Shown: one piece after another, positions 8,703 through 33,555 of the stretch
Layout of the letters: every line of letters starts with the position of its first letter
How positions within the stretch are numbered: the first letter of the stretch is position 1
From: Sedimenticola hydrogenitrophicus
GTDB lineage: Bacteria > Pseudomonadota > Gammaproteobacteria > Chromatiales > Chromatiaceae
Assembly: GCF_025175675.1 (NCBI RefSeq)
Contig: NZ_JANIOA010000008.1
Coordinates: forward strand, 62,001 to 126,000
Direction: 5' to 3'
Length of the DNA stretch: 64,000 nt
The notes under the pieces: generated by a model
The model's input: only the letters and a program-made list of their open reading frames with translations
The model's database searches: none
What the model was told of the DNA's origin: nothing
Made by a program: the position numbers and the translations under genes

Positions 8703-8704
8703 GA

Positions 8705-10527: not shown

Positions 10528-10542
10528 GACTCTCTCCTCAAC

Positions 10543-15831: not shown

Positions 15832-16664
15832 TGTTTCTTCTCCGCCAACAACTTCACGATCATCTCCAACTCCCTGACCGTCATCTTTTCCGCAAAATCA
15901 CCCGGCATGGCAGCGGGGAAGCCCTCCGCGATCACCGCATTGGGATCGATAATACTCTGCCGGATCTCTCCTTCGTTCAGACGGGCACCCACGTGGCCCA
16001 GACCCGGCCCCACCAGGGTATCGTCATTGTCCAGGGCATGGCATGCCGTGCAGGTATACTTGGCCACTGCCTCTTCCCCGCTGGCTGCCGGCGCCGGTGC
16101 GGCGCCAGCCCCTCCCGGAGCGGCGTCACTTTTCGCCACTTCCGCCGCCGCATCGGGTGAGGGCAGCACTACCGTGACCTCGTTTCCGTCCTTCGCCTGC
16201 AGATAGGCGATAATGGCGTCCACCTCGATGTCGCTCAGCTGGATCGGTGCCTTATCGACGGCCGGCATGGGCGACTCGGCGTCATCACTTCCCTTCTTGC
16301 CCCAGCCGGCTACCACGTAGGCGCTTGGTTCGAGCATCGACTCCAGGATATAGGAAGCCGCATCGGTCGCCTTGCCCTGGTAGCGCTCATCGGCCAGCCG
16401 TTCCGTCGTAATGGCGACCATGTTTGTGCCCTGCACATCCGGTGCCCGACCCAGGGGTGCCGGTTTGTGGCAGAGTGTGCAAGTGCCCTTGTTGTTGAAC
16501 AGATCCTCGCCCATGGCGACAAAGTCATCCATGGTCAACGCACTGAGATCCACCTTGACATCCACCGGTGCGTCGCCCTCTACCTGGGGCAGCATATTGG
16601 CCACGCCGGTAAACACCAGGGTCAGCCCAAGGCTGAAACCCACTGTCTTGATCAATACACTCAT
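15828..16664 (-). CDS. Di-haem cytochrome c, membrane-anchored
   Basis: A 278-aa protein with an N-terminal signal or anchor (VGFSLGLTLVFTGVANML) and two haem c motifs, GTCTLCHKP (about residues 60-67) and YTCTACHAL (about 203-210). The two domains are joined by an Ala/Pro-rich linker (GGAGAAPAPAASGEE). The C-terminal domain carries the usual PGDFAEKMTVRELEMIVKLL ending, with an upstream MPGDF supplying the likely Met ligand. The gene overlaps the CydA-like gene by 4 bp and the tri-haem gene by 4 bp. It is the likely electron donor to, or acceptor from, the CydA-like subunit. Confidence 0.88.
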   Translation of the reverse strand: MSVLIKTVGFSLGLTLVFTGVANMLPQVEGDAPVDVKVDLSALTMDDFVAMGEDLFNNKGTCTLCHKPAPLGRAPDVQGTNMVAITTERLADERYQGKATDAASYILESMLEPSAYVVAGWGKKGSDDAESPMPAVDKAPIQLSDIEVDAIIAYLQAKDGNEVTVVLPSPDAAAEVAKSDAAPGGAGAAPAPAASGEEAVAKYTCTACHALDNDDTLVGPGLGHVGARLNEGEIRQSIIDPNAVIAEGFPAAMPGDFAEKMTVRELEMIVKLLAEKKQ

Positions 16665-18598: not shown

Positions 18599-18741
18599 TG
18601 CGCTGGACTCAAGTCCATATTCAGCGGCAGCCCCTGAATACTCATCACAAAATGGTCAAGTCCATAGAACGCGGCCAGGACCACCACAAAAGCCATGACA
18701 GTCGCCGCAACGACCATCCCTCTCTGCATATTTTTATCCAC
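18595..18741 (-). CDS. 48-aa single-helix membrane protein, probable small subunit
   Basis: A short gene starting at GTG 18741 with a strong ribosome binding site, AAGGAGG, 5 bases upstream. The protein has one membrane helix (MVVAATVMAFVVVLAAFYGL) and the short tail LPLNMDLSPAQ. Its TGA overlaps the GTG start of the CydA-like gene, so the two are translationally coupled. Small single-helix subunits (CydX, CcoQ) accompany many terminal oxidases, and that is the likely role. No family is recognised. Confidence 0.75.
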   Translation of the reverse strand: MDKNMQRGMVVAATVMAFVVVLAAFYGLDHFVMSIQGLPLNMDLSPAQ

Positions 18742-18760: not shown

Positions 18761-18916
18761 CTAACCGTGCTGAACAACCACACCGCCGGAGTAGATCAGC
18801 AGCCAGTAGAAGAAAACCAACAAGGCCAGCAGCGTGGCGAGAAACAGTTTTGGCCCCCAGGCTTTTTTTCCTGGATCCCGGACGGTTTCACTATGCTCAT
18901 CAGGTGCACGATTCAT
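18761..18916 (-). CDS. 51-aa single-helix membrane protein, first gene of the cytochrome cluster
   Basis: Starts at ATG 18916 (MNRAPDEHSETVRDPGKKAW) and ends at TAG 18761. It has a hydrophilic N-terminus followed by one helix (LFLATLLALLVFFYWLLIYS). The next gene starts 19 bp further on. GGGG lies about 8 bases before the start as a modest ribosome binding site. It is the first gene of the minus-strand operon. It may be a second small subunit or an assembly factor; no family is recognised. Confidence 0.65.
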   Translation of the reverse strand: MNRAPDEHSETVRDPGKKAWGPKLFLATLLALLVFFYWLLIYSGGVVVQHG

Positions 18917-19235
18917 TTTTTCCCCAGCCACACCACAAAGGTGTTTTCGAATATCTGTTTATGTGAAGCTCCCAAGGCCAGAGCAAAATGCAGGCCAACA
19001 AAACAGACGCCAGACAACCAAACCGAAGAAAACAGCTGATCCCACGGCTAACCCTTGATAACACTGCAACTAGCGCGCAACCGGAAAGAGCGCCCGGCAG
19101 ACGGGTATAACACCGGATCAACCGGTTTCAGGCGCAGGAGTACAGAACGAACTATTCACACGGCACTTTTCAATGGCATTTTTTATTCAACCGCACGCGG
19201 GGATGGTGACTATTGTGTTTTGGATAGCGGAACAG

Positions 19236-19414: not shown

Positions 19415-21955
19415 ATGCCTTCATGCAACCAAACTGTCGAAGCACTGTGTGAACTCATTCAAACGGGCGATGAAGCAGACCGCTGCCATGCCATACGCGC
19501 ACTGGGCGCACTGAAGGCGGAGAGCGCCGTCACGCAGCTCATCCCCTATCTGCGGAACGAGGATATCGATGTCTGTGTCGATGCGGCGGACGCCCTGGGC
19601 AAGATCGGCTCAGCGGTCGCGGTTCCCGACTTGGTTGAAGCCCTGAACAACGAGACGGACGGCGAAATCTGTGCGTCGATAGCGGAGGCGGTCGGCCATA
19701 TCGGTGGAGAAGCTGCCATCCAGGCGTTACATCGAGTCATGAACCAGCGCCCGGAGGGGATGGAGTGGGAGAGTGACTGGGATCCCTGGTGGAATGTGCA
19801 ACTGGAAGCGGTAAAGGCACTGGGCAGATTGCGGGCGGAGTCCGTCGTCGATGACCTGGAAAGAATTCTTGACGACGAGAACGAGCAGGATATCGAGAAT
19901 GAAATCCTGCGCGCCCTGGCACAGATCCCAAATCGCGGGGTCGAAACGCTGATCGCCCGCCTGCAGAACAGCGAACGCCGCCCACAATCCCGTTATCGCG
20001 CCGCCCGGGCACTGCGATATGCCGAGCCCGATCAGGCGGTCAAGGCGTTGGGCCGGGCGCTGCAGGACAGTGAACCTGAGGTAAGGGCCGAGGCGGCCGA
20101 ATCCCTGGCGGCGCTCCATGCTACCCACTACCTGCGGGCACTGCTGCTGATGCTGCGTGACCCCGAGGAACGGGTCCGGGATGCCGCGATCAGGTCAGTC
20201 TTGCAATTGAGTGGAACGGGCTCCGCCGTCGACGGGCTCCAGGAGGCCCTGCTTCCCCTGCTGCGTGATCCCAGCAGTCAGGTGCGGCGCACCCTGATGA
20301 ACGCATTGATTCCAGTGGCCGGTGTCAATCCGTTGTCCGCACGGAACCTGGAGGCAGTCAGCGACAGCCTGATGGATGGCAGCGTGGAGACGGCCTCCGC
20401 GGCCGCTTCACTGCTGGGACACAATGGCGACACGGCGGCCGAGCCGACACTGCTGGTCATATTGCAGAATCGCGCGGGCCATCCGATGGTACGCCGCGAG
20501 GCGGCCCTGGCACTCGGCCGCATGGGATGCCTGACCGGGGAGACCGTTGAAATCCTCACCCAGTGCATCGGCGACCGGCAGCAACCCGTTCGGCTGGCGG
20601 CGCTCGCCGCCCTGATGGAGCTGGATAAAAACAGCGTATTATCCTCTGCTGAAGCGGAAGCGCATCCCCGTCCCCTGGAAATCATCATCTCCGCCGTCAG
20701 GGGCGAGATCACGCTCGCTCCGGATCGCCAGGAGATCCTTGAGAAACTGCAACAGACAGCCACCGCGGATGCCGACAGCCCCGCCATTGAGAATCCACAC
20801 AACGACGACGAGGCGGTGGACGCCGATCCACTGCGAGTGCCCGCGGATTACAATCCGGATGCCTATGCAACCGAAATTTCGACAGAAGACTCGGCAGCTC
20901 TGGAGGTGACGCAGGAGGTAACACCGGAGCCGCTCCCTGAAGTGCTGGCCGATTATATTCAGCCGCCCCCACCGACAGTCGATCTGCAGCTGCCGGAAAA
21001 GGCTGGCCGTATTGTCCAGGCCGGGGAAGTGAGGCAGGCGATCTCCACCCTGGATGCCATTGCCATGGACAATGTGGAGGTCACCCTGGGGATATCCGAG
21101 CCCGCGACGGAAACTGAAGCGGATGAAGAGACGCAGGAATTTCTGGCGGTGGTGGATGAAAACATCAATACCATGAAACGCCTTCGCTCACAGCGGAACA
21201 TTACACCGGAGCAGGATGTACGTCGCCTGGGGGCACGCATTCTCGCGGACAGCCATAGCAGCGATGCGGTCTCCGCACTTGTACAGGCTTTGAGTGACGA
21301 CGATAGTCTGCTGCGACGCGAAGCGGCCGATGCCATCGGCCTGATCGGCAGACGCAATCCCGCCACGCCGGGATTGATGGATGCGGTGGGCATCTTGATC
21401 ACCCAATTAACCGTCGGTGATATGGAACAAAGGGTCACCTGTGCCCGTGCCCTGGGAAACCTGGGCAACCGCGTCGCGCTCGCTCCGTTGATCGAAACCT
21501 TGCATGATGAAAATGCCAATGTACAGGTTCAGGCGATCGGCGCCTTGGCACAACTGGCTGTGCATGGAGCCGACCCGGACGAGGCGGATCATATGGTCAT
21601 CCGCAACATTCCACCCCTCGCCGTGGCCAGGAAGTTATTGGAAAAACTGGACAGTCCGGAAATGGCGGTTCGTGTGGCGGCATCACGCGCGCTGGGACCG
21701 CTTGTCGACAAAGCGTCTGACAAGACCTTTTCTAAAACAGCGGCGGCCAAAATAATCGACAGCGTGGCCAACTGGTCCGGCGAGGAGGCGCGGCCCATCG
21801 GCCAGGCGCTGCAGCTATTCGACTTTGATTTTTGTGCCGACCGGCTCCTGTGCCAGCTGAAATGTGCCGACAGCAGCCTCAAGCGCAGCGTCTACATCGA
21901 AATACTGGAAACATTATTGAATACAAACCCTCAGCAGCCCCAGCAGGCTGCCTGA
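19415..21955 (+). CDS. Large HEAT-repeat protein
   Basis: An 846-aa soluble protein with no signal peptide or membrane helix. It is built of HEAT/PBS-lyase-type repeats of about 31 residues, for example AVTQLIPYLRNEDIDVCVDA and AVPDLVEALNNETDGEICAS. Repeats cover about residues 5-440 and 600-840, with an acidic, less ordered linker between. HEAT arrays act as protein scaffolds; PBS-lyase relatives attach or remove bilins, so a tetrapyrrole-related scaffold role is conceivable given the downstream genes. It is the first gene after the sigma-54 promoter. The ribosome binding site is weak. Confidence 0.85.
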   Translation: MPSCNQTVEALCELIQTGDEADRCHAIRALGALKAESAVTQLIPYLRNEDIDVCVDAADALGKIGSAVAVPDLVEALNNETDGEICASIAEAVGHIGGEAAIQALHRVMNQRPEGMEWESDWDPWWNVQLEAVKALGRLRAESVVDDLERILDDENEQDIENEILRALAQIPNRGVETLIARLQNSERRPQSRYRAARALRYAEPDQAVKALGRALQDSEPEVRAEAAESLAALHATHYLRALLLMLRDPEERVRDAAIRSVLQLSGTGSAVDGLQEALLPLLRDPSSQVRRTLMNALIPVAGVNPLSARNLEAVSDSLMDGSVETASAAASLLGHNGDTAAEPTLLVILQNRAGHPMVRREAALALGRMGCLTGETVEILTQCIGDRQQPVRLAALAALMELDKNSVLSSAEAEAHPRPLEIIISAVRGEITLAPDRQEILEKLQQTATADADSPAIENPHNDDEAVDADPLRVPADYNPDAYATEISTEDSAALEVTQEVTPEPLPEVLADYIQPPPPTVDLQLPEKAGRIVQAGEVRQAISTLDAIAMDNVEVTLGISEPATETEADEETQEFLAVVDENINTMKRLRSQRNITPEQDVRRLGARILADSHSSDAVSALVQALSDDDSLLRREAADAIGLIGRRNPATPGLMDAVGILITQLTVGDMEQRVTCARALGNLGNRVALAPLIETLHDENANVQVQAIGALAQLAVHGADPDEADHMVIRNIPPLAVARKLLEKLDSPEMAVRVAASRALGPLVDKASDKTFSKTAAAKIIDSVANWSGEEARPIGQALQLFDFDFCADRLLCQLKCADSSLKRSVYIEILETLLNTNPQQPQQAA

Positions 21956-21987: not shown

Positions 21988-22731
21988 ATGAAGAAGTTAT
22001 TACTTTCCCTCAGTGTCGCCACCCTCTGCACACTCCCGCTGGCGGCCCAGTCCGCGGCCTACAAGGAGGCTGCGGTCAGCGGCGGCGGCAGCATCACCGG
22101 CAAGGTCAAGTTTGCCGGCAAGGATGAGTCGGCCAAGAGCTACACCATATCCAAGGATAACGATGTCTGCGGCAACGGCAGCCGCGAAATCGATTTCGTG
22201 CGGGTAAAGGATGGCCATCTGTTGGACAGCGTGGTCTACCTGGATAAAGTGAAAGAGGGTAAGGCCTTCCCGGCGGAGGTTGCCGACGCCACGGTCACCC
22301 AGAAGGGGTGTGAATTCAGCCCGTTTCTTCAGGTGATGCGTAACGAAAATAATCTGGCGGCGGTGAATAAGGACCCGGTACTGCACAACATCCATACCTA
22401 TGAGTTGCTCACCGGCTCCTACACCGGCCCGAAAAAGACCCAGAGCAATGTCAGCCAGCCCGAACCCAACACCGTAACCAAGCAGGTGGACCTGAAAAAG
22501 GGACCGGCGATGAAGATCGAGTGCGATGCGCATGATTTCATGCACGGCTTTGTGTTTGTCGCCCAGAACCCCTACTTCGCCGTGGTCCAGGAGGATGGCT
22601 CGTTCACCATCGACAACGTACCGCCCGGTAAATACACCATCAAGGCGTGGCACGGCCTGCTGAAAAACCAGAAAGGCTCCGTCGAAGTGGCGGCCAATGG
22701 CACCGCGACCGTTGACTTCACGTTCAAATAA
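21988..22731 (+). CDS. Periplasmic cupredoxin-like protein
   Basis: A 247-aa protein with a signal peptide (KKLLLSLSVATLCTLPLAAQ, residues 2-21). The fold seems to be a plastocyanin-like beta domain: a GKVKFAG start, DNDVCGNG, NKDPVLHNIHTY, KIECDAHDFMHGFVFVAQNP, and a carboxypeptidase-regulatory-like end DGSFTIDNVPPGKYTIKAWH. The His and Cys in LHNIHTY and CDAHDFMHG could bind copper. Related proteins are often annotated as methylamine-utilisation-like or carboxypeptidase-regulatory-like. The ATG at 21988 has CAGGAG 7 bases upstream. A metal site is inferred, not proven. Confidence 0.7.
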   Translation: MKKLLLSLSVATLCTLPLAAQSAAYKEAAVSGGGSITGKVKFAGKDESAKSYTISKDNDVCGNGSREIDFVRVKDGHLLDSVVYLDKVKEGKAFPAEVADATVTQKGCEFSPFLQVMRNENNLAAVNKDPVLHNIHTYELLTGSYTGPKKTQSNVSQPEPNTVTKQVDLKKGPAMKIECDAHDFMHGFVFVAQNPYFAVVQEDGSFTIDNVPPGKYTIKAWHGLLKNQKGSVEVAANGTATVDFTFK

Positions 22732-22960: not shown

Positions 22961-25207
22961 ATGAACGCACAGCCACAGCCACGTGATGACGCCACCCAAC
23001 CGCTGACGGCTTACAAAGCCATTCTGCTGGCCGTGGACTCATCGGATCACAGTAATCGCGCCACCCGGGAGGCGGTGGATCTGGCCTGCCGGTTCGGCAG
23101 CCGGCTGACTTCCGCACACGTCTACGCCGCCAAACTGCATGACCTGCGCTTTCGGCAGATGGAGGGTGGTCTCCCGGACCAGTTCCGGGAAGAGCAGGAG
23201 CTGGAACGGCAGCGCGACGTGCACGACTCGCTGATCACCAAGGGACTCTCCATCATCACCGACTCCTACCTGGATCAGGTGGACCGACAGGCGGCAGCTT
23301 CACAACTGACCATTCAACGGCGCTCGCTGGAAGGGAAAAACTACCGCGAGTTGTCCCGGGAGACCAACAGCGGCCGTTACGACCTGCTGGTGATGGGCGC
23401 CCTTGGTCTGGGTGCGGTCAAGGGCAGTCGCCTGGGCACGGTCTGCCAGCGGGTGACGCGGCGCAGCCAGATTGACACATTGATTGTCAAGCAACCGGAA
23501 CGCGCCCTCGGCGACGGTCCCATTGTGGTGGGCATCGACGGCTCGCCCAAATCCTATGGCGGCCTGTTGACCGCGCTTTCGCTTGCCGGCACCTGGCATG
23601 TTCCGGTCAAGGTGATTTCCGCTTTTGACCCCTATTATCACTACGTCGCCTTTAACCGCATTGCCGGAGTGCTCTCGGAAGAGGCGGGAAAAGTATTCCG
23701 CTTTCAGGAGCAGGAGAAGCTGCACGAGGAGATCATCGACTCCGGCCTGGCCAAAATCTATCAAGGTCATCTGGCCGTGGCCCAGGGTATCGCCAAGGAT
23801 TACGGCATGGAGATTGAGACCGTGCTGCTGGATGGCAAACCCCACGAGGTGATGCTGCGCTATCTGCAGGAGACCAACCCCTCGCTGCTGATTCTCGGCA
23901 CCACCGGCATTCATGCCGACGACGAACTGGACATCGGCGGCAATACCGAATATCTGCTCAATGACGCCCCCTGCGCGGTACTGCTCAGCCAGCAGACCTA
24001 CACACCCCGGCTCGACCGGCTGGCCGAGGTCACCACCTCCTGGACCCATGAGGCCGAACAGCGCATGGAGCGGGTCCCCTCCTTTGTCCGGCCCATGGCG
24101 AGGATGGCCATTCTGCGTTATGCCCAGGAGCAGGGGCATACCGTCATTACCGAAAGCATTGTCGAAGAGGCCACCGCGCAACTGATGCCCAACCACGCCG
24201 AGCAGGCGATGGAGGAGATTGTCGAGGCCTATGACAGCGGCAAACTCAAGCAAAATCCGACCGCGGAACAGGCCATGCGCTGGAGCGACGAGGCCACCCG
24301 CCTGTTGCTCACGGTCAAGGATCTCAGTCTGCGCGGCAATCTCAGTATGCGGGCGGAGAAGCGCGCCCGCGGCGAGGGCACGCGCCAGGTCGAGGCCGCC
24401 CATATCCGCCACTTTGTTGAGAATCAACCCGTTTCCGGAGCGGCACACGACCCAATCCAGCCCCCCTTGGATGAAGCCGTTGTCGCCCCGGATCATTCAC
24501 CCGCCGGCGACCTGACCTGGCAAACCGCCGCCCTGGCACGCCTGATGCGCGTGCCCGAGGGTTTCATGCGCGACAGCTCGAAGCAGCGTATCGAGGCGTA
24601 TGCCCGCCAGCAAGGTGCGGATGGGATCACCCTGGCCGTGGCTGAGGCGGGACTGGCCGAGGCGCGTTCCGCGATGATGGAGATGAACGTGGCTGATGAG
24701 AGACCACATGGGGAGAAACCACAGGGGGATAAGCCAAGCACCTGCCCCTTCGCCGGCGCCGGCGCCAATACCCAGCCTGGCCAGGCCGCTGCTCCGGCGG
24801 AGACCGCCAAACCGAACGTCCTGGAGTGGACCGCGGAGGCACGCGCCATGCTCGGCGGCGTACCGGTGGGATTCTGCCGGGACATGTCGGTCAACGCCGC
24901 CGAATCCATCGCCCGGCATAACGGGGTGCGGGTCATCGATGCCGCCTTCATCTCCCAGGTGCTGGAGACGATCAAGAACGGCTCGGAATCGGCCGGTACC
25001 AGCATGGCCTGGAGCGCGGAGGCCGAACAGCGCCTCAGCCGGGTGCCGGATTTCGTACGCGGCATGCTGGTACGCGAAATCGAGGATTGGGCCGGGCGCC
25101 AAGGCAAGACCACCATCGATCGGGAGGCAGTGGATGTGGTCAGGGCACAGTGGCAGGAGCGCGGCGCCTTCCATCTCGACCCGGCCGACCCGCGCAACAG
25201 TGGGTGA
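22961..25207 (+). CDS. Two UspA domains fused to five PCP_red-like repeats
   Basis: A 748-aa soluble protein. Residues 17-178 and 186-343 are two universal-stress-protein domains; GALGLGAVKGSRLGTV and LGTTGIHADDELDIGGNTEY are near their ATP-loop positions. From residue 358 on there are five repeats of about 45-50 residues with the pattern W-x-EA-x-x-R-L-x-R-VP-x-FVR (for example WTHEAEQRMERVPSFVRPM and WSAEAEQRLSRVPDFVRGML). This is the PCP_red pattern known from the C-terminus of the light-independent protochlorophyllide reductase B subunit. The fusion and the repeat number are unusual. The ATG at 22961 has GGAG 8 bases upstream; an in-frame ATG at 22925 is an alternative. A tetrapyrrole- or Fe-S-binding role is inferred. 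Confidence 0.8.
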   Translation: MNAQPQPRDDATQPLTAYKAILLAVDSSDHSNRATREAVDLACRFGSRLTSAHVYAAKLHDLRFRQMEGGLPDQFREEQELERQRDVHDSLITKGLSIITDSYLDQVDRQAAASQLTIQRRSLEGKNYRELSRETNSGRYDLLVMGALGLGAVKGSRLGTVCQRVTRRSQIDTLIVKQPERALGDGPIVVGIDGSPKSYGGLLTALSLAGTWHVPVKVISAFDPYYHYVAFNRIAGVLSEEAGKVFRFQEQEKLHEEIIDSGLAKIYQGHLAVAQGIAKDYGMEIETVLLDGKPHEVMLRYLQETNPSLLILGTTGIHADDELDIGGNTEYLLNDAPCAVLLSQQTYTPRLDRLAEVTTSWTHEAEQRMERVPSFVRPMARMAILRYAQEQGHTVITESIVEEATAQLMPNHAEQAMEEIVEAYDSGKLKQNPTAEQAMRWSDEATRLLLTVKDLSLRGNLSMRAEKRARGEGTRQVEAAHIRHFVENQPVSGAAHDPIQPPLDEAVVAPDHSPAGDLTWQTAALARLMRVPEGFMRDSSKQRIEAYARQQGADGITLAVAEAGLAEARSAMMEMNVADERPHGEKPQGDKPSTCPFAGAGANTQPGQAAAPAETAKPNVLEWTAEARAMLGGVPVGFCRDMSVNAAESIARHNGVRVIDAAFISQVLETIKNGSESAGTSMAWSAEAEQRLSRVPDFVRGMLVREIEDWAGRQGKTTIDREAVDVVRAQWQERGAFHLDPADPRNSG

Positions 25208-25227
25208 TTATCTTGTATAACCGCATC

Positions 25228-25434
25228 GTAACTACTCACGGGCTGATTGGCCTAACTTGCCGGCCTCGCGTGATGGCTTATCTCCTCGAATCCGGCCCCA
25301 TTTTCAGCGCCTGCCCAAACTCGCTTCGCTCAGACAAGGGCAGGCTTGAATCTGAAAAAGGGGCCGGATTCAAGGCGCCATCAAGATCGGCCAACAAGCC
25401 AGGCCAATCACTTACAGGCCGGGTGAGTAGTTGC
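25228..25434. repeat. MITE-like palindromic element, copy 1
   Basis: Ends GTAACTACTCAC and GTGAGTAGTTGC; imperfect terminal inverted repeats of about 40 bp (TGATTGGCCT/AGGCCAATCA inside) enclose a GC-rich centre with GGGGCCGGATTC. Related copies lie at 56357-56615 and, shortened, at 48740-48850. No coding capacity. It lies between two genes of the sigma-54 operon. Confidence 0.8.
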
Positions 25435-25464
25435 ACCTTGTCGCGTACGTTGGGTTAAACGCGC

Positions 25465-27588
25465 ATGCATGATCTTTACCTGATCGCCATCAACCTGACC
25501 CGGCGTTGCAACCTGGCCTGTGAGCATTGCTATATGAATGCCGATGGCCGCGCCAGCGATGCCGGCGAGCTCGGCACCGCCGAGGTGACGCAACTGCTCG
25601 ACGAGATTGCCGCGCGCGGCACCGAGACCATGGTGGTGCTGACCGGCGGCGAACCGCTGCTAAGACGCGACCTGGAACGGCTGGTGACCTATGGAAGCCG
25701 ACTGGGACTGGCCATGGTGGTGGGCACCAATGGGGTGTTGTTGAACGAATCCCGGGTGGTATCACTGAAACAGGCCGGCGTCATGGGCATCGGCATCAGT
25801 CTCGATTCACTGGAGCCCGACAGCCACGACCGCTTCCGCGGCTGTAACGGCAGTTGGGAAAAGACCCTGGCTGGCATGGACTTCTGCCGCCGGCATGAGG
25901 TGCCGTTTCAGGTCCATTTCTCGGTCACCGACCAGAATGCCCACGAGGTGCGGTCGATGATCGATTTCACCCGGGCGGCCGGCGCCCATGTGCTGAACAT
26001 CTTCTTCCTGGTCTGCACCGGGCGCGGCGAGTCCATGTCCGATATCTCGCCGGCCCGCTACGAAGCGGTGCTGAACGAACTGGTCGAGGCCCAGGCCAAC
26101 ACCCCCGAACTGCTGATCCGCGCCCGTTGCGCCCCGCATTTCAAGCGCGTGGCCTATGAGCACAACCCGGACTCCCCCTTGACCCGGGCCCAGGGCTACG
26201 AGGGGGGGGGCTGTCTGGCCGGCATTCACTACTGCCGCATCACCCCGGAGGGCGCGGTGACCGCCTGCCCCTATATCCCGGATGAGCAGGGCAATATCCG
26301 CCAGGAGAGTTTCTGGCGGATCTGGGATCACGCACCGCAAATGCAATCGCTGCGCCAGCCCGCGCTGACCGGCAAATGCGGCAAATGCGAATACCGCAAA
26401 CTCTGCGGCGGCTGCCGCGCCCGGCCGCTGGGTATCGCCCGCGCGGCGGAACCGATGGCGTTACCGTCCGATGCGACAGAGTACCAACTCCTCACCACCG
26501 AGCAGCTCGGGCATGGCGAGGCCTTGATGCGGGCCGATCCCTGGTGCGGGCACTACCCGACCGGCAAGGCGTTGATAGAACCCCTGAACGAGAGCGGGCC
26601 TACGACCATAAGCTGGTCTCCCGAGGCGGAACAGCGCCTGGCCCGGGTCCCCGGTTTTTTGCGCAAGATGGTGCGCAAGCGGGCCGAGGCCCATGCCGTG
26701 GAACAGGGGGAATCGCAGGTCACGGTGGCGCACATGAGCGCCCTGGCGGCCAAACGGTTTGGCGACAACATGCCCGCACGGCCAACCGCTTCCGGGGATC
26801 AGGCTACTCCTGGGAATCAGGCCTCAGGGGAGACCCCCCCGGAGTCGCCGTTACGGCGGTTGGCCTGGACCGCCGAGGCGACGGAGTATCTGCAACAAAC
26901 CCCCACCTTTCTGCGCGAGGGGGTGTTTGCCGTGGCGGAGGATGTCGCCCGCCAGGAGGGCCGGCTTGAGGTCAACATCAACCTGCTGCGGCGCCTGGAA
27001 GCGGAAGACGATCCGGCGCGCACGCTGTTCTGGGAGGATCAGGCGGAGGAACTGCTGGAGGTGGTGCTGGCCGGCCGCGCCCCGCAGGTGGCGCTGTTCG
27101 TTCGACCCAGTATGGAGGCGGCCGCCGAGCGGGAGGCCAAACGCCGCGATTCGATCGTGGTCAACGAGGCCGACGTGGCCGTGGTGATCGCCACCGACAT
27201 GGCCGGCGTAGAGTGGGACGCGGATGCCCTGGCGCGGGTCGAATCGGCACCGGATTTCGTCCGCGGCGGGATCAAGAAGGCGGCCGAGTTCGGCGCCCGG
27301 CGCGAGGGGCTAAGCCGGATCACCGCCGAGGATCTGACCCGGTTCCGCAACCGCGCGATGATGCGCGCGGTGCGCCGCATGAAGGGCTTCGGCATGGCCG
27401 ACCTCGACTTTGACGCCTTCGCCATCGCCCGGGAGCGGGTACCCCGGCTCAAGGGGAATGAACAGGCCGTGAAGCGCTTCCAACAGATCCGCTCCTATGT
27501 CGAATCGAAACAGGCGCCCGATGGCGGTGGCCTGGGGCTGCTGGACCGTGATCTGCTGGAGCGGATGCGGGCCGAGCTGAGACGCTGA
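25465..27588 (+). CDS. Radical SAM/SPASM enzyme fused to about four PCP_red-like repeats
   Basis: A 707-aa protein. The radical SAM cluster motif is C15-x3-C19-x2-C22 (RRCNLACEHCYMNADGR), followed by the TGGEP SAM-binding motif. The SPASM region (about residues 250-320) has GGGCLAGIHYCRITPEGAV, TACPYIP and GKCGKCEYRKLCGGCRARP, close in style to NirJ and AhbD of haem d1 and alternative haem synthesis. Residues 385 to the end hold about four PCP_red-like repeats (WSPEAEQRLARVPGFLRKMV, WTAEATEYLQQTPTFLREGV, a weaker one, and WDADALARVESAPDFVRGGI). The gene is followed by a HemY-like oxidase gene 8 bp on. Modification of a porphyrin or a peptide is likely; the substrate is unknown. Confidence 0.85.
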   Translation: MHDLYLIAINLTRRCNLACEHCYMNADGRASDAGELGTAEVTQLLDEIAARGTETMVVLTGGEPLLRRDLERLVTYGSRLGLAMVVGTNGVLLNESRVVSLKQAGVMGIGISLDSLEPDSHDRFRGCNGSWEKTLAGMDFCRRHEVPFQVHFSVTDQNAHEVRSMIDFTRAAGAHVLNIFFLVCTGRGESMSDISPARYEAVLNELVEAQANTPELLIRARCAPHFKRVAYEHNPDSPLTRAQGYEGGGCLAGIHYCRITPEGAVTACPYIPDEQGNIRQESFWRIWDHAPQMQSLRQPALTGKCGKCEYRKLCGGCRARPLGIARAAEPMALPSDATEYQLLTTEQLGHGEALMRADPWCGHYPTGKALIEPLNESGPTTISWSPEAEQRLARVPGFLRKMVRKRAEAHAVEQGESQVTVAHMSALAAKRFGDNMPARPTASGDQATPGNQASGETPPESPLRRLAWTAEATEYLQQTPTFLREGVFAVAEDVARQEGRLEVNINLLRRLEAEDDPARTLFWEDQAEELLEVVLAGRAPQVALFVRPSMEAAAEREAKRRDSIVVNEADVAVVIATDMAGVEWDADALARVESAPDFVRGGIKKAAEFGARREGLSRITAEDLTRFRNRAMMRAVRRMKGFGMADLDFDAFAIARERVPRLKGNEQAVKRFQQIRSYVESKQAPDGGGLGLLDRDLLERMRAELRR

Positions 27589-27596
27589 GGAAAATC

Positions 27597-29021
27597 ATGG
27601 CGAACCCCCAAGTATTGATTATCGGCGCCGGCATCTCCGGACTCTCGACCGCCTGGTGGCTGGCGCGGCAAGGCATCGCCGTTGAAGTCTGGGAAGCGGA
27701 CGGCCGTCCCGGCGGCAAGATCCGCAGCACCCATGAAGCGGGCTATCTCACCGAACGCGCCGCCGGGCTGCTGGTCAACTTCCGCCCGGAGATCGACCGG
27801 CTGGTCGATCAGTGTGGTCTTGCCGGGTCCAAACGCACCCGGCCGGAAGACCTCAATCGCTATGTGGTGCACCGGGGCCGCCTCACCGCCGTGCCGATGC
27901 AAATCGCCGGCCTGATCCACTCACCGCTGTGGAGTTGGCAGGCCAAGCTGCGCCTGCTGGCGGAGGGATTCATCCCCCGGGGCGAGCAGCCGGACGAGAG
28001 CGCCAGCCGGTTCATCACCCGGCGCCTGGGCCGCGAGGTATTGGAAACGGCGTTCGATCCTTTCATTGCCGGCACCCTGGCCTCCGATCCGGCATTGGCC
28101 GAGGCCCGATCGGTGCTGCCCCGCCTGACCGCCCTGGAACAACGCTACGGCAGTATCACCCTGGGCGTGCTGATCAACAGCCTGCTGAAAAGGAAAAAAC
28201 GCCGGACCAACAGCGCCGACACCTTCTCGTTCCAGGGCGGCATGTCCGAGTTAACCGACCGGCTGAGCCGCGCGCCGGGGGTCAGCATACGCTATCACAC
28301 GCGGGTAACCGGGATCGAACCCGCCGGGCGTGGCTGGCGGGTCACCGCCCGCTCGGGTATGGGTTCGGGCAGGGCCACGCACACCCGCCAGGTCTCCCAA
28401 CTGGTGATCACCATACCCGCCGATAGCGCCTCGATGCTGCTATCCGATCTGGACCGGCCATTGAGCGGCTTGCTGTCGCAAATCCACTATGCCCCGGTCT
28501 CCATCGTGCATCTCGGCATGGATGAACGCCAGGTGGGACACCCCCTGGACGGCACCGGTTTCCTGGTCCCGGGGAAGGAAAAACTGGGTTTTAACGGTAA
28601 TCTGTGGATGAGCCGCCTGTTTCCCGGCCGTGCCCCCGAGGGCAAGACACTGCTCACCAGCTATCTGGGCGGAGCGCGCCAGGCCGACAGCATCGGCTGG
28701 AGCGATGAGCGGATAGTCAGCCTGCTGCTCGGCCAGCTGTCGCCGCTGATCGACCTGCAAGGTGAAGCGGATTACATCCGCGTCGACCGTCATCCCCGGG
28801 GGCTGCCGCTCTATCATGGGCAACATCAGGCCCGGGTGGAGGCCATACGCGCGCGCCTGTCGAACCACCCGGGACTCCACTTGACGGCCAACTACCTGGA
28901 TGGCGTCTCGGTCCGGGACCGGATTTTTCAGGGGAGCAGAACGGCCCGGGCGATCCTGGAGAGCCTGCCGCGGGCCACCCTGCAACAGGCCATTCAGACA
29001 ACCCACGCCTTGACGGCATAG
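27597..29021 (+). CDS. HemY-like protoporphyrinogen/porphyrinogen oxidase
   Basis: A 474-aa flavoprotein. The FAD dinucleotide fold is IIGAGISGLSTAWWLARQG with a following EADGRPGGKI. FDPFIAGTLASDPALAEARS and FSFQGGMSELTDRLS match the protoporphyrinogen oxidase (HemY/PPOX) family. In haem synthesis this enzyme oxidises protoporphyrinogen or coproporphyrinogen. Its place after a radical SAM/PCP_red gene and opposite a CydA-like cluster suggests a specialised tetrapyrrole step rather than general haem synthesis. It starts 8 bp after the radical SAM stop, with GAGG just before. Confidence 0.88.
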   Translation: MANPQVLIIGAGISGLSTAWWLARQGIAVEVWEADGRPGGKIRSTHEAGYLTERAAGLLVNFRPEIDRLVDQCGLAGSKRTRPEDLNRYVVHRGRLTAVPMQIAGLIHSPLWSWQAKLRLLAEGFIPRGEQPDESASRFITRRLGREVLETAFDPFIAGTLASDPALAEARSVLPRLTALEQRYGSITLGVLINSLLKRKKRRTNSADTFSFQGGMSELTDRLSRAPGVSIRYHTRVTGIEPAGRGWRVTARSGMGSGRATHTRQVSQLVITIPADSASMLLSDLDRPLSGLLSQIHYAPVSIVHLGMDERQVGHPLDGTGFLVPGKEKLGFNGNLWMSRLFPGRAPEGKTLLTSYLGGARQADSIGWSDERIVSLLLGQLSPLIDLQGEADYIRVDRHPRGLPLYHGQHQARVEAIRARLSNHPGLHLTANYLDGVSVRDRIFQGSRTARAILESLPRATLQQAIQTTHALTA

Positions 29022-29246: not shown

Positions 29247-29579
29247 ATGACCGCACCACAGGTTTTAGACAATGCACAACAACCGCCCTTCCGGCCGTTA
29301 CGGCTGGTGGCGGTGGTGCTGTTGATCCTGCTCGGCATCTCCGGCGCCGCCCAATGGTACTCCCGCAACGTCACCCTGCCTCGCTATTGCGAGGATCCGG
29401 CCACGGTGCTGGAACGGGTACACCGGCTGCTGACCGAGGCGCAACCGGCGGGGGAAGGGGACCGCAAACCCTACATCATCGCGGCGCGGCTTACCTTTCT
29501 GATCCCACGGGGCCATGATGAGCCGCTGACCGCTTACCTGAACCGGCTGCAGAGGCATATGGAGCAACAATGCCGATAA
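29247..29579 (+). CDS. 110-aa membrane-anchored protein of unknown function
   Basis: One membrane helix at about residues 19-36 (LRLVAVVLLILLGISGAAQW) followed by a periplasmic domain of about 70 residues with two cysteines (YCEDP and the C-terminal QQCR). It overlaps the sensor kinase gene by 10 bp, so it is in the same operon. It could help the kinase sense periplasmic conditions; no family is recognised. Confidence 0.75.
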   Translation: MTAPQVLDNAQQPPFRPLRLVAVVLLILLGISGAAQWYSRNVTLPRYCEDPATVLERVHRLLTEAQPAGEGDRKPYIIAARLTFLIPRGHDEPLTAYLNRLQRHMEQQCR

Positions 29580-32173
29580 CCCCGCCCATGCCGCAGTCAC
29601 GCCTGAGCCTGCTGAAAGGGTTCGCAGGCATTTTCATGTCGCTCTTGCTGATGCTGGGAATAGTCGGTTCGATGCACTATTACACCTACTACACCACCGA
29701 GCGCAGCAATCGTGAAGCCAGCGAAAACCTCAATGTGGACCTGGCCCGACGCATGATCGTCAGCGATATCTCCAGCGTGGCCAGCGATCTGATGTTTCTG
29801 GCCCGGCATGTCGAACAGCAGGGGCTGTTGCAGGCACCGCGGCACGTCCTGGAACAACGTGTTGCCCTGGAGTTCTCCGTCTTTGCCGAAGAAAAGGGAC
29901 TGTTCGATCAGATCCGTTATCTGGACAGGAAGGGCCGGGAGGTTGTGCGGGTCAACTACAATGGCGGACAGCTGCGCACCGTGCCCCGCGATGAGCTCCA
30001 GAACAAGGCGGACCGCTACTATATTCGGGATGTAATGAGCCAATCACGCGGCGGACTCTACCTCTCGCCACTGGATCTCAATATCGAAGATGGAAAAATA
30101 GAGTACCCGTTAAAACCGATGATCCGTTTTGCCACCCCGGTATTTGACGATGCGGGGGTAAAACAGGGCGCCATCATGCTCAACTATTTTGGTGACCGGC
30201 TGATCGGCAACTTCACTCAGGCCGCGGCCAATATTGCCGATCATGTCGTACTGGTGAATGAGCAGGGCTATTGGCTGAAAAGCCTGAACCGAAAAGATGA
30301 GTGGGGCTTTATGTTCGGCAGCGACAAGACATTCGCCACCGAACAGCCACGCGCCTGGGATATCATCCAGCGATCCGAGAGCGGCCAGTTCCAGACATCC
30401 GCGGGACTCTTTACCTTCCACACCGTTTCACCGCTCAGCGTGGCCAGGCAAACATCCCAATCCGGCAGTCCAGTGGTCCAGAGCAATCCCCCGGGCCACT
30501 GGAAAATCATTGCCCAGGTCTCTTCCCGTGAACTGTCGGCGACGCTGCCGTTTTTCATCCAGCAGCATCTGGCGCTCTATCTCGGCATGCTCGGGCTGAT
30601 CATCATCAGCGCGTTGTTTCTCGCCCACTCACAGTACCACCACCGGCGCACCGATGCCCAACGTGAGTATGAACAACGATTCCGCCATACCCTTGAAAAT
30701 ATCGAATTGGTGGCGGTTGCACTGGATCGCCAGGGCCTGATCACCTTCTGTAATGACTATTTTCTGCGCCTTACCGACTGGAAACGCAAGGATGTCATTG
30801 GCAAGACATGGATAGAGGCCTTTGTCCCGGACGAATTTAAAGCCGAGATGCTGGGCATCATCGACCGGATGCGCCATCCCGAGCAATTCCCACCCCGCTA
30901 TGAGGGCCGGGTGCTGGCCCGTGACGGCAGTCTGCTGCTGATCGCCTGGAACAACACCCTCTCCTACAGCCCCGCCGGGGCGGTGATCGGCGTAACCGGT
31001 ATAGGTGAGGACATCACCGAGCAACGTCGTTCCGAAGAAGAGTTGCGCAAACTGAACCGTGCGGTGGAACAGAGTCCCAGTGTTGTCATGATCACCAACA
31101 GGCAGGGGCTGATCGACTATGTCAATCCAAAGTTTACCGAGGTGTCCGGCTATACCCGGGAAGAGGTGGTCGGCAGAAACCCACGGATTCTGAAGTCCGG
31201 AGAAACCAGCAAGGCCGAGTATAAAAATCTTTGGGCAACGGTCTACCGGGGCGAGGAGTGGCGGGGCGAATTCCATAATCGCCGGAAATCGGGGGAGCTC
31301 TATTGGGAGAGTGCCACTATATCCGCTATTCGAAATCCCGAAGGTGAAATCACCCACTTTCTTGCCGTCAAAGAGGATATTACCGAACATAAGCGGCTCG
31401 AAGCGGAAGTTGAGGAGCGCAATCGTGAGCTGTCCAAAAACCAGGCGCTGGCCGCCATGGGGCGCATGGCCAGCATGATCGCCCATGACCTGCGCAATCC
31501 CCTCTCCTCGGTGAAGATGACGCTGCAGATCCTGGGCAAACAGAACGGAGACCAAGCACTGGCGGAGACGGACGAATTGCGCCAGATCTCGCTGGAGCAG
31601 ATCCGCTACATGGAGGAGATCCTTTCCGACATGCTCACCTATTCAAAACCCGATGCGCTGAACCCGGAATGGATCACCATCGATCGGGTGATCGATATGG
31701 CGATCGGCCTGTCACAGCGCAAGATCGAGGAGTACGATGTCCAGGTTTCAACCCAGTATCATCCGGGCCTGCCGACCCTTTATGGTGATGCCACCAAACT
31801 CCGCCAGGTATTCAGCAATCTCATTACCAACGCCGCCCAGTCGACCGATGGCATCCACAGGCCCCGGGTGGCCATTGACGTCATGGTGGAATTGGGCGTA
31901 AGCGGCACCTGTATCCGGGTGGATATCTGTGACAACGGCAATGGAATTGATCTCGAGGAACGGGAACGGCTGTTTGAGCCATTCTTCACCACCCGAACCA
32001 AGGGAACGGGGCTCGGTCTGGCCATTGTCAAACGCATCCTCGATCAACATCAGGCCGCCATTGAACTCCTGCCCAATGAACCGCAGGGCACCCGGGTCAG
32101 CGTGGTATTACCCATTTCACCGAATTCCATTCAGCATGATGAAGAGCAATCAGCGGAGAACAGCCCGGCATGA
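29570..32173 (+). CDS. Membrane sensor histidine kinase with two PAS domains
   Basis: An 867-aa kinase. Helices at about residues 14-40 and 335-358 bracket an extracytoplasmic Cache-like sensor of about 290 residues (motifs RYLDRKGREVVRVNY and KADRYYIRDV are typical). Two PAS domains follow (about 365-485 and 490-610, the second with NRRKSGELYWESATISAIRN). The HisKA motif is MIAHDLRNPLSSV with the phospho-acceptor near His639, and the ATPase has DNGNGID and GTGLGLAIV. The next gene encodes its partner and overlaps by 4 bp. The signal sensed is unknown. Confidence 0.92.
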   Translation: MPITPPMPQSRLSLLKGFAGIFMSLLLMLGIVGSMHYYTYYTTERSNREASENLNVDLARRMIVSDISSVASDLMFLARHVEQQGLLQAPRHVLEQRVALEFSVFAEEKGLFDQIRYLDRKGREVVRVNYNGGQLRTVPRDELQNKADRYYIRDVMSQSRGGLYLSPLDLNIEDGKIEYPLKPMIRFATPVFDDAGVKQGAIMLNYFGDRLIGNFTQAAANIADHVVLVNEQGYWLKSLNRKDEWGFMFGSDKTFATEQPRAWDIIQRSESGQFQTSAGLFTFHTVSPLSVARQTSQSGSPVVQSNPPGHWKIIAQVSSRELSATLPFFIQQHLALYLGMLGLIIISALFLAHSQYHHRRTDAQREYEQRFRHTLENIELVAVALDRQGLITFCNDYFLRLTDWKRKDVIGKTWIEAFVPDEFKAEMLGIIDRMRHPEQFPPRYEGRVLARDGSLLLIAWNNTLSYSPAGAVIGVTGIGEDITEQRRSEEELRKLNRAVEQSPSVVMITNRQGLIDYVNPKFTEVSGYTREEVVGRNPRILKSGETSKAEYKNLWATVYRGEEWRGEFHNRRKSGELYWESATISAIRNPEGEITHFLAVKEDITEHKRLEAEVEERNRELSKNQALAAMGRMASMIAHDLRNPLSSVKMTLQILGKQNGDQALAETDELRQISLEQIRYMEEILSDMLTYSKPDALNPEWITIDRVIDMAIGLSQRKIEEYDVQVSTQYHPGLPTLYGDATKLRQVFSNLITNAAQSTDGIHRPRVAIDVMVELGVSGTCIRVDICDNGNGIDLEERERLFEPFFTTRTKGTGLGLAIVKRILDQHQAAIELLPNEPQGTRVSVVLPISPNSIQHDEEQSAENSPA

Positions 32174-33555
32174 GCAAAATCCTTGTTGTCGATGACGACG
32201 TAGCCAGCTGCCGGACACTGCAGGTTCATCTGCGCAACCAGGGACATGACGTGGAGATCGCCCACAGTGTCGACCAGGGTCTTGCGGCGGCGGAGACCAA
32301 ACCCGACCTGGTCATTCTGGATATCCGCATGCCTGGCCGTTCCGGACTGGAGGGCATTCCCGATTTCAAAACCGCCCTGCCCCAGGCCAAGATCATCATG
32401 ATCACCGCCTTCCACGATATGGAGAGCACCATCGAGGCGATGCAGAGCGGGGCGGATGATTATATTCACAAACCGATCGATATCGACGAACTGGAAAGTG
32501 CCATCGCCAAGCTGATGGTACCGGTCCAGGAGAGTGAAAATCTGTTGCCCGCTCATATAGGCGATACCAGCAGCCTCTCCATGGTCGGGCGCAGCCGGGG
32601 GATGAAAGAGGTATTCAAGACCATCGGCATGGTGGCAAAAAGCCCGGCCACGGTACTTATTACCGGCGAATCCGGCACAGGCAAAGAGTTGGTGGCACGC
32701 GCCATTCACCGTTCGGGAGAGAACCCGGGTGGTCCCTTTGTCGCTGTCAATTGCGCGGCACTGGTGGAAACCCTGCTCGAATCCGACATGTTTGGCCACG
32801 AGAAGGGGGCCTTTACCGGTGCGGTCGGCCGGCAGGAAGGTAAATTTTCCCTGGCCAGGGGCGGTACCATCTTTCTCGATGAGGTGGGTGAGATGTCCCC
32901 CGCCATGCAGGCCAAGCTGCTGCGGGTGCTGCAGTACAAGGAGTACACCCCATTGGGAGCAAAACAGGCCCAGACAACCGATGCGCGAGTCATCACCGCC
33001 ACCAATGTCAATCTCGAGGAAGCCGTGAAGGCCGGTAAGTTCAGGGAGGACCTCTATTACCGGCTACAGGTGGTCAACATCCATCTGCCACCCTTGCGGG
33101 AACGAAAAGAGGACCTGATGGACCTGATCCAGGTGCTGCTTGGGCGTATCAACAAGGAACTGCATCGGAATGTGACCCACATTTCCCAAGAGGTGCTGGA
33201 TTGCCTGGAACGCTATGACTGGCCGGGCAATGTGCGGGAACTGGAGAATGTGCTGATGAAGAGTATCGCCCTCTCGCATGGCGATGCGCTTTCCCGCGAC
33301 CTGCTGCCTCCGCCGCTGGATAACCTGTCCCGAAAAGACCACAATAACCATGCGAAAGCCCCGGCGGATCAAAGCCTTGAAGAGATGGAGGCAACCCATA
33401 TAGCCAGGGTCCTGGAGGCAACCCAATGGCACAAGGGTCGGGCCTGTGAGATTCTCGGGATCTCCCGTCCACGTTTGCGAAGGATGATAAGGCACTACCA
33501 ACTGACCCCTCCGGAACATATCGTGATTGAGCGGGAAGAGGAGGATTTTGAGTAA
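32170..33555 (+). CDS. NtrC-family sigma-54 response regulator
   Basis: A 461-aa regulator with a receiver domain (phospho-acceptor Asp51 in LVILDIRMPG), an AAA+ domain with Walker A GESGTGKE, the sigma-54 contact loop GAFTGA and GGTIFLDEVGEM, and a C-terminal Fis-type helix-turn-helix (GRACEILGISRPRLRRMIRH). It should activate sigma-54 promoters when phosphorylated by the kinase encoded just upstream. The promoter at 19357 and palindrome at 19236 are plausible targets. It closes the plus-strand operon. Confidence 0.93.
   Translation: MSKILVVDDDVASCRTLQVHLRNQGHDVEIAHSVDQGLAAAETKPDLVILDIRMPGRSGLEGIPDFKTALPQAKIIMITAFHDMESTIEAMQSGADDYIHKPIDIDELESAIAKLMVPVQESENLLPAHIGDTSSLSMVGRSRGMKEVFKTIGMVAKSPATVLITGESGTGKELVARAIHRSGENPGGPFVAVNCAALVETLLESDMFGHEKGAFTGAVGRQEGKFSLARGGTIFLDEVGEMSPAMQAKLLRVLQYKEYTPLGAKQAQTTDARVITATNVNLEEAVKAGKFREDLYYRLQVVNIHLPPLRERKEDLMDLIQVLLGRINKELHRNVTHISQEVLDCLERYDWPGNVRELENVLMKSIALSHGDALSRDLLPPPLDNLSRKDHNNHAKAPADQSLEEMEATHIARVLEATQWHKGRACEILGISRPRLRRMIRHYQLTPPEHIVIEREEEDFE

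Follow-up and report, generated by a model that had tools for sequence, protein, structure and literature searches.

A PCP_red-repeat, radical SAM and HemY gene trio as a candidate tetrapyrrole-tailoring unit beside a bd-like oxidase

Genes of the locus

The genes described here lie in a window of 64,000 nucleotides, the whole stretch of Sedimenticola hydrogenitrophicus DNA that was analysed. Three of them form a trio on the plus strand. The first encodes a protein with two Usp domains, five PCP_red repeats and a CPF motif, called Usp-PCP below (22961-25207; Pfam, with the start at 22961 taken from an orthologue alignment). It is followed by the gene of an AhbD/NirJ2-like radical SAM/SPASM protein whose C-terminal part has four PCP_red repeats (25465-27588), assigned by Pfam, NCBIfam and cysteine spacing, and, after a gap of 8 bases, by that of a HemY-type FAD-dependent porphyrinogen oxidase (27597-29021; TIGR00562). 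On the same strand, the trio is preceded by a HEAT/PBS-lyase-repeat protein (19415-21955) and a periplasmic CarboxypepD_reg/cupredoxin-like protein (about 21988-22731), both recognised by Pfam and present as neighbours in 41 and 44 of 80 named loci, respectively; the start (MKKLLL) and the copper site of the latter were judged by eye. The HEAT protein was considered as a bilin lyase and rejected, its NCBIfam CpcE score of 93.9 (of 330) being taken as generic HEAT similarity. Downstream of the trio, and also on the plus strand, are a small single-TM protein of ~100 aa (29247-29579; a neighbour in 45 of the 80 loci), a PAS histidine kinase (29570-32173) and an NtrC-type (sigma-54) response regulator (32170-33555), the last two identified with Pfam.

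The minus strand carries the CydA-like membrane protein (16661-18598), which is the presumed client of the trio. Two short single-TM peptides, tmA (18761-18931) and tmB (18595-18741), come before it, and similar peptides were detected in 38 and 34 of the 80 named loci (E up to 0.05). Beyond the CydA-like gene are a dihaem cytochrome c with two CXXCH motifs (15828-16664), a trihaem cytochrome c with three CXXCH motifs fused to an EB_dh domain (13399-15831) and a SCO1/SenC copper chaperone (12305-12940), all from Pfam. A linked neighbour, still on the minus strand, is an idrABP1P2-type cluster of a molybdopterin/Rieske enzyme and two dihaem peroxidases (6009-11649; Pfam, TIGR02693 and synteny). 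Its molybdoenzyme scores 385.8 bits with TIGR02693 (arsenite oxidase type; cut-off 359.05), and its genes follow the order idrA-idrB-idrP1-idrP2, which the accessible text of PMC8692401 gives as a feature of iodate reductase clusters.

The earlier note had placed the set opposite the CydA-like cluster across a shared control region. The opposed strands are as stated, but the PCP genes do not adjoin that region directly: the plus-strand genes bordering it are those of the HEAT and then the cupredoxin-like protein, the PCP genes and HemY being the third to fifth, and tmA and tmB sit between the region and the CydA-like gene on the minus strand. As to shared control of both operons, a search of the whole window for sigma-54 promoters gave 4 near-matches against 2.58 expected and none within the shared region, so that no claim on the control of the operons is made.

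Domain make-up of the encoded proteins

The repeats were expected in the earlier note to match PF08369, on pain of refutation, and they do. The whole genome contains seven PF08369 matches, six of them over the Pfam cut-off, and every one lies inside this window; a hidden photosynthesis cluster, of which PCP_red might have been a sign, is rejected on the same ground. The repeats of Usp-PCP span 24041-25153 (24041-24181, the degenerate 24281-24421, 24518-24661, 24827-24970 and 25010-25153), as obtained by converting the residues found with our own profile to window positions, four of the five agreeing with PF08369 matches. Those of the radical SAM-PCP protein are at 26614-26754, 26866-27006, 27094-27195 (degenerate) and 27214-27354. 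In order, the own-profile scores are 77.3, 18.0, 69.1, 72.2 and 76.8 bits for Usp-PCP and 75.7, 69.4, 11.1 and 67.8 bits for the radical SAM-PCP protein. The seven clear repeats score high because the profile was built from them, and the control of 400 shuffled tails (top score 6.1) is informative on the two degenerate ones, which at 18.0 and 11.1 bits exceed it. The earlier count of "five and about four" repeats therefore stands, each protein having one that is degenerate.

PCP_red occurs in other settings as well. In two other genomes its fusion partner matches Fe_bilin_red below the threshold, which lends slight support to a tetrapyrrole reading. Standalone PCP_red proteins of 57-58 aa were seen at three loci (L139, L140 and L141), of which that at L141 comes after a B12-dependent ribonucleotide reductase and that at L140 stands among unrelated genes; the question of function is not decided by these.

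Both of the fusions described earlier are borne out. The Usp domains of Usp-PCP score 117.1 bits over two stretches, and the Radical_SAM and SPASM domains of the second protein 80.9 and 29.3 bits, all over the Pfam cut-offs. The linker of Usp-PCP contains a CPF motif (24743-24751, plus strand), which we take to be a possible haem-binding Cys-Pro motif; it is present in 62 of the 83 family members that are 450 aa or longer, with a background of 0.018 per 700 aa. Among the NCBIfam models, the radical SAM part scores highest with NirJ2 (301.8), followed by AhbD (282.9); neither score reaches the equivalog cut-off of 500, and that with the NirJ model is only 157. In the accessible text of PMC10452713, the AhbD motif comprises a radical SAM CX3CX2C and an eight-Cys SPASM domain with spacing limits. 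Of 82 relatives no shorter than 380 aa, 77 show this spacing (69 of the 74 that are distinct). None of the cysteines is missing from the window protein, but a 26-residue insertion widens its last gap to 43, over the published 17-35.

The third protein of the trio is HemY-like, as had been claimed, with a TIGR00562 score of 238.3 bits (cut-off 97.85), and GxGxxG, the FAD motif, is found near the start of 73 of 77 relatives. HemJ is present in this genome, as it is in the three congeners without the set, and the set HemY is thus additional here; for that reason we did not keep the idea that it is no more than the protoporphyrinogen oxidase of this genome. HemJ was found in 10 of 14 set genomes tested and is absent from four (G029, G007, G068 and G034), to which that rejection does not extend and in which HemY may be the ordinary oxidase.

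The CydA-like protein matches PF01654 with 76.6 bits (cut-off 26.2) and has 12 hydrophobic segments by a crude hydropathy count, the first of them signal-like. The positions of E. coli CydA His19 and Glu107 are kept in 51 of 51 ungapped CydA-like sequences, and that of Glu99 is Tyr in all 51. The mapping of the E. coli haem ligands is reliable in the first half only, and an apparent loss of Glu445 was not used. A profile alignment with 5doq, read by eye, appears to set window His282 on a conserved His.

Distribution of the set and of the CydA-like gene

Co-occurrence of the set with the CydA-like gene, which the earlier note had made a test of its proposal, is strong in the family, in the class and among the named loci. 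Among 96 genomes of the family, the radical SAM-PCP gene is present in all 19 that have the CydA-like gene, and the latter in 19 of the 21 that have the former (Fisher 3.7e-18). In 369 genomes of the class, 14 contain both genes, the single totals being 17 and 16 (Fisher 1e-20). The flanks of the 80 named loci include Usp-PCP in 77 and HemY in 71, and the CydA-like gene is found in the genomes of 75; two of the other five (L116 and L068) may be contig breaks, and the remaining three stand as apparent exceptions. Two genomes, G288 (97% complete) and G188 (90%), have the CydA-like gene and no PCP_red match. Within the family, HemY over the cut-off is found in 20 of 21 set genomes and in 1 of the 75 others, and four set genomes carry another, higher-scoring HemY on a different contig.

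The set and the CydA-like block appear to be partly independent in descent, judging from distance correlations without species-tree control: 0.47 to 0.62 between set and block, 0.77 and 0.87 within the set and 0.91 within the block. In one genome (G012), the CydA-like gene is 57% identical and has neighbours of the Gallionella type, and a Sedimenticola-type pair of Usp-PCP and radical SAM-PCP lies on another contig. The set occurs in many chemolithotrophs, among them Sedimenticola, Thiodiazotropha, tubeworm symbionts, Gallionella, Thiomargarita and Mariprofundus. Among plasmids, 37 records were retrieved, each with an identity under 60% and a query coverage short of 80%, and no description of the set was found in the open-licence literature searched.

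Proposed function and related systems

By combining the gene content, domain make-up, cysteine motifs, co-occurrence and gene order described above, it is possible to propose that Usp-PCP, the AhbD-like radical SAM-PCP protein and HemY form a dedicated tetrapyrrole-tailoring unit for a cytochrome-c-fed bd-like oxidase, a reading to which we give a little less than an even chance. The near-constant co-occurrence suggests that the bd-like protein uses a specially made haem. HemY would aromatise a porphyrinogen, and the radical SAM enzyme would attack the propionate side chains of an iron-porphyrin in the way that AhbD attacks those of coprohaem. Holding the tetrapyrrole or passing it on might fall to the PCP_red repeats of the two proteins, together with the invariant histidines and the Cys-Pro motif of Usp-PCP, and the product would be loaded into the haem sites of the adjoining CydA-like protein. 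That protein would be supplied with electrons by products of the adjacent genes, the c-type cytochromes and the periplasmic molybdoenzyme. The earlier suggestion of a special haem for the CydA-like complex is thus strengthened in its link to tetrapyrroles, by the AhbD-type cysteine spacing and by a HemY that is additional to HemJ here; as to which tetrapyrrole is made and how it is delivered, we infer the steps just given.

The same enzyme types would fit a second route to ordinary haem b that feeds the haem-rich cluster, in which HemY would produce coproporphyrin and the AhbD-like enzyme, once iron had been inserted, would turn coprohaem into haem b. Many haem proteins are encoded in the cluster, and the four HemJ-less genomes are in line with such a route, but HemJ in the other ten, this genome included, makes protoporphyrin possible there without the set HemY. 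As this route also leaves the nine PCP_red repeats and the tracking of the CydA-like gene unexplained, we consider it rather unlikely. The set might instead serve the periplasmic molybdoenzyme (iodate reductase-like or NXR-like) or the respiratory island as a whole, the link to the CydA-like gene being indirect. The loci often contain such an enzyme, either idr-like or type II DMSO-reductase-like: IdrA is present in 19 of the 21 family set genomes; outside the family, 12 class genomes have both the set and the CydA-like gene, and IdrA occurs in 9 of them, while in the other three (G109, G215 and G435) the set adjoins a type II DMSO-reductase-like operon. The molybdoenzyme is almost as tightly associated, so that the CydA-like link alone is not the whole story. 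However, G012, in a search for the idr type, has the set and the CydA-like gene without IdrA, G045 and G085 have IdrA without either, and two types of molybdoenzyme stand beside the set as against one type of CydA-like protein. Service to the molybdoenzyme or the island as such is accordingly regarded as improbable.

Two further explanations move away from haem synthesis. Peptides are the substrates of many SPASM enzymes, and the radical SAM/SPASM protein could be a protein or peptide maturase for which the Usp and PCP_red parts are scaffolding; tmA and tmB are nearby, and 13 of 15 sequences match the GeoRSP maturase model (best 1.1e-57) and 2 of 15 WgkB (best 6.1e-43). Against this, NirJ2 and AhbD match all 15 with better best E-values (8e-96 and 7.5e-94), and a porphyrinogen oxidase gene accompanies most of the loci, which leaves a maturase very improbable. 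Little can be said for a regulatory or stress set, in which Usp and PCP_red would sense haem or redox state for the adjoining kinase and regulator, and we give this the least weight. The Usp domains and the CPF motif would suit such a sensor, and kinase and NtrC-type regulator matches are found in the flanks of 44 and 39 of the 80 loci, but Gallionella-type loci (L078, L083, L100 and L102 among them) have the trio without that kinase and regulator, and two of the three trio members are enzymes.

Returning to the tailoring unit, a more specific form of it is put forward tentatively, as possible rather than expected: the trio may make an undescribed haem, for example chlorin-type or propionate-modified, with PCP_red repeats carrying it as a general module for the handling of tetrapyrroles, and may install it in a cytochrome-c-linked bd-like oxidase serving the high-potential molybdoenzymes of sulfur and iron oxidisers. 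If so, this would be the first case, to our knowledge, of a cofactor pathway dedicated to a bd-type oxidase, and PCP_red, known from chlorophyll synthesis, would have a role outside photosynthesis. E. coli bd is not known to need such genes for its haem d, a point against the tailoring unit. It would be unexpected for a bd-type oxidase to have maturation genes of its own, and such genes make the delivery of a special haem a question for gene deletion. The set may also be a marker for a way of respiring that relies on high-potential donors or acceptors, and the OR-N oxidases of nitrite oxidisers are open to the same approach.

Several known systems resemble parts of the locus. The iodate reductase cluster idrABP1P2 has the same gene order and families as the neighbouring cluster, which is here a linked neighbour outside the trio and is not found in some set genomes, G012 and G001 among them. 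The CydA-like protein shares PF01654, the His19 position, adjoining c-type cytochromes and, in some loci, a second CydA-like copy with the OR-N-like CydA proteins of the cytochrome bd superfamily; the likeness is one of features, and no OR clade is assigned. The accessible text of PMC10839748 and PMC12342949 mentions no dedicated haem enzymes. AhbD, the haem synthase of the sirohaem-dependent pathway, has in common with the radical SAM-PCP relatives the full eight-cysteine SPASM motif and its spacing, but the protein described here is below the equivalog cut-off, bears PCP_red repeats and is encoded beside HemY in a respiratory cluster of a proteobacterium. NirJ2, which with NirJ represents haem d1 synthesis, gives the highest NCBIfam score of the radical SAM part, yet one below 500, and no nir genes were found among the 20 window proteins scanned with Pfam. 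The set HemY exceeds the TIGR00562 cut-off, as expected of HemY and the coproporphyrinogen oxidase CgoX, and differs in being an extra enzyme beside HemJ here and in occurring, within the family, almost only in set genomes. The likeness to BchB/ChlB of DPOR is limited to the C-terminal PCP_red domain: Pfam detects no nitrogenase-like domain before the repeats, which are in tandem here and fused only to Usp or radical SAM/SPASM domains.

Association of the trio with the CydA-like gene

The genome holding the window measures 4.7 Mb. The plus strand encodes, in order, a HEAT-repeat protein, a periplasmic cupredoxin-like protein, the trio (a Usp protein and an AhbD/NirJ2-like radical SAM protein, both with PCP_red repeats, and a HemY-type oxidase), a small membrane protein, a PAS kinase and an NtrC-type regulator. 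Outward from the shared control region, the minus strand encodes two very short single-transmembrane peptides (18595-18741 and 18761-18931), then the CydA-like protein, a dihaem cytochrome c, a trihaem cytochrome c carrying an EB_dh domain, and SCO1. The genes beyond SCO1, for two dihaem peroxidases, a Rieske protein and a molybdoenzyme, match idrABP1P2 in content. Matches were obtained in 419 stretches, 414 of which encode relatives, and the best 80 of the 414 loci were analysed. The peptides, with counterparts in 34 and 38 of these 80, respectively, are possible small subunits of the CydA-like complex. In the Thiotrichaceae and Thiomargarita loci L123 and L124 the trio is reordered (radical SAM, small membrane protein, Usp-PCP), with no HemY found in the flanks.

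Among 96 genomes of the family, the radical SAM-PCP gene is present in 21 (E <1e-60) and the CydA-like gene in 19, all 19 being among those 21. The two genomes having the former without the latter are G025 (84% complete) and G013 (40% complete), in which the radical SAM-PCP gene is in two fragments; the G053 gene is 45% identical. In 369 genomes of the class, with E limits of 1e-60 and 1e-40, the genes occur in 17 and 16 genomes, respectively, and together in 14; outside the family, counted by genus, they occur in 12 and 11 with 10 shared, in a test over the sample's 272 genera. The three class genomes with the radical SAM gene only are G358, a fragment, and G144 and G386, which were rejected as true members of the set, being 35-36% identical and devoid of PCP_red. 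Neither G188 nor G288, which have only the CydA-like gene, yielded a PCP_red match.

The CydA-like gene lies in the flank of 42 of the best 80 of the 414 loci and elsewhere in the genome for 33 of the remaining 38; the flanks also contain Usp-PCP in 77 cases and HemY in 71. Of the five loci for which it was not found, the L116 contig stops right behind the pair of small peptides encoded ahead of CydA-like and the L068 contig starts within Usp-PCP; no explanation was found for L072, L080 and L087. Many relatives are incomplete metagenome assemblies, and such absences are therefore weak evidence. The genome and locus samples overlap and are thus not independent.

The set and the CydA-like gene are best read as two mutually dependent blocks rather than one frozen block. 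Their orientation is divergent in 32 of the 42 loci and the same in 10. Distance correlations, made without species-tree control and with some genomes included twice, are 0.87 and 0.77 within the set and 0.91 for CydA-like with its cytochrome; for the set with CydA-like they reach only 0.47 to 0.62. The blocks are split in G012, where one contig carries CydA-like with Gallionella-type neighbours and HemY, and another carries a Sedimenticola-type pair of Usp-PCP and radical SAM-PCP. The G188 contig has the HEAT, cupredoxin and small membrane protein genes with the trio missing between them, and PCP_red was found nowhere in this 90% complete genome.

Molybdoenzymes beside the set

IdrA, the iodate-reductase-type molybdoenzyme, occurs in 22 of the 96 family genomes, including 19 of the 21 with the set (it was not found in G012 and G001); the three genomes that have it but not the set are G018 (33% identical), G045 and G085. 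Outside the family, 9 of the 12 class genomes with both genes have a match of 50 to 75% identity. The search of 16 genomes gave nine positives, the negatives being G109, G215, G435, G288, G188, G012 and G001. Instead of IdrA, G109, G215 and G435 have a type II DMSO-reductase-like operon near the set, with a large subunit of 1176-1182 aa. Operons of this type (large subunit ~1180 aa) lie near the set at L132:8426-15296, L133:5038-11893, L134:6531-14210 and L117:1576-6783, and in L132-L134 near CydA-like as well; the L117 enzyme is the same as that of the three genomes. By size and make-up only, we take it to resemble nitrite oxidoreductase, and the operon may encode an enzyme of that kind; a Tat-like signal is visible by eye on the L134 large subunit, and TIGR03479 scored far under its cut-off.

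A second idrABP1P2-type cluster, accompanied by kinase and regulator genes, is located just before the window (G000:C111:55526-58216 and L145:7527-13131), ~12 kb upstream of the window's own cluster (6009-11649). The two are 89% (IdrA), 98% (IdrB), 86% (P1) and 96% (P2) identical, and the second looks like a duplication. The idrABP1P2 genes are described as iodate-reduction genes in a paper that mentions Sedimenticola thiotaurini (PMC8692401), and PMC11445184 calls it unclear what idr does in aerobic bacteria. In Gallionella-type loci (L100:5885-7636 and relatives) a beta-propeller protein that weakly matches cupredoxin lies near the set; its C-terminus appears CuA-like by eye, and the protein resembles nitrous oxide reductase.

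PCP_red repeats and the radical SAM enzyme

All seven genome-wide matches to PF08369 fall inside the window. A profile built from the seven clear repeats assigns five repeats to the Usp protein and four to the radical SAM protein, and its two weakest hits (18.0 and 11.1 bits) exceed the top score from 400 shuffled tails (6.1), which bears out the count in the earlier note. The following observations, few and weak, point towards tetrapyrrole handling. Eight histidines of the Usp protein are shared by all 25 aligned sequences, and 62 of 83 Usp-PCP family members carry a CPF motif; Cys-Pro motifs are able to bind haem. Proteins of ~320 aa with a C-terminal PCP_red occur in four other family genomes (L142:4984-5928, L143:4929-5903, L144:5028-5975 and L146:4248-5243), and the two of them scanned with Pfam match Fe_bilin_red, a bilin reductase model, with scores of 24.3 and 20.4 bits that fall short of its cut-off of 31. 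Elsewhere (L141:1212-4273), a small standalone PCP_red protein is encoded after a B12-dependent ribonucleotide reductase and a TSCPD protein.

The radical SAM protein is predicted to work as an AhbD-type enzyme by its cluster ligands, yet its model scores keep it from being classed as AhbD (NirJ2 301.8 and AhbD 282.9, neither reaching the cut-off of 500). Each of the 15 sequences scanned is matched by the two models with an E-value no worse than 1e-40 (best 8e-96 and 7.5e-94); the peptide-type models GeoRSP and WgkB match 13 (best 1.1e-57) and 2 of them. The full SPASM motif published for a subset of AhbD proteins is CX20-33CX17CX36-37CX2CX5CX2CX17-35C (PMC10452713). Among 82 relatives with a length of 380 aa or more, 77 satisfy these limits together with the radical SAM motif, or 69 of 74 when identical sequences are counted once. 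With a stricter radical SAM motif search and a looser last gap 76 fit, 70 of them with exactly 27-17-36-2-5-2-17 spacing; the other six relatives are two N-terminally cut fragments and four with a longer start or other spacing. The window protein keeps all the motif cysteines, its last gap being stretched to 43 by a 26-residue insertion.

A proposed modified haem for a bd-type protein

HemY exceeds its family cut-off in 21 of the 96 family genomes, namely 20 with the set and G040. It does not always adjoin the set: in G012 it is next to CydA-like, on a separate contig, and G072, G025, G046 and G086 have an extra, higher-scoring copy on another contig. The main rival explanation is that the trio constitutes an additional pathway to ordinary haem b. 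In a review (PMC7242693) AhbD is said to convert two propionates into vinyl groups; cytochrome bd is not named in the text consulted. HemJ was found in 15 of 19 genomes searched: all five without the set, including the three congeners G003, G061 and G095, and 10 of 14 with it, the window genome among them. HemY is thus additional to HemJ in the window genome. In G029, G007, G068 and G034, the set genomes in which HemJ was not found, HemY could be the ordinary oxidase.

Beyond the gene facts, which alone are established, we propose the following process. HemY and the AhbD-like enzyme would make a modified iron-porphyrin, the PCP_red repeats and the Usp protein would bind it or pass it on, and it would finish in the CydA-like protein.

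This presumed client is assigned to the bd superfamily via PF01654, and some genomes have a second copy. All 51 ungapped sequences conserve the residues corresponding to E. coli His19 and Glu107 and have Tyr at the Glu99 position; the second half of the protein is unalignable. Use of cytochrome c by the OR-N bd-like oxidases is considered likely, though experimentally unconfirmed (PMC10839748). The window CydA-like protein is tentatively taken as a relative of these oxidases, as described in PMC10839748 and PMC12342949.
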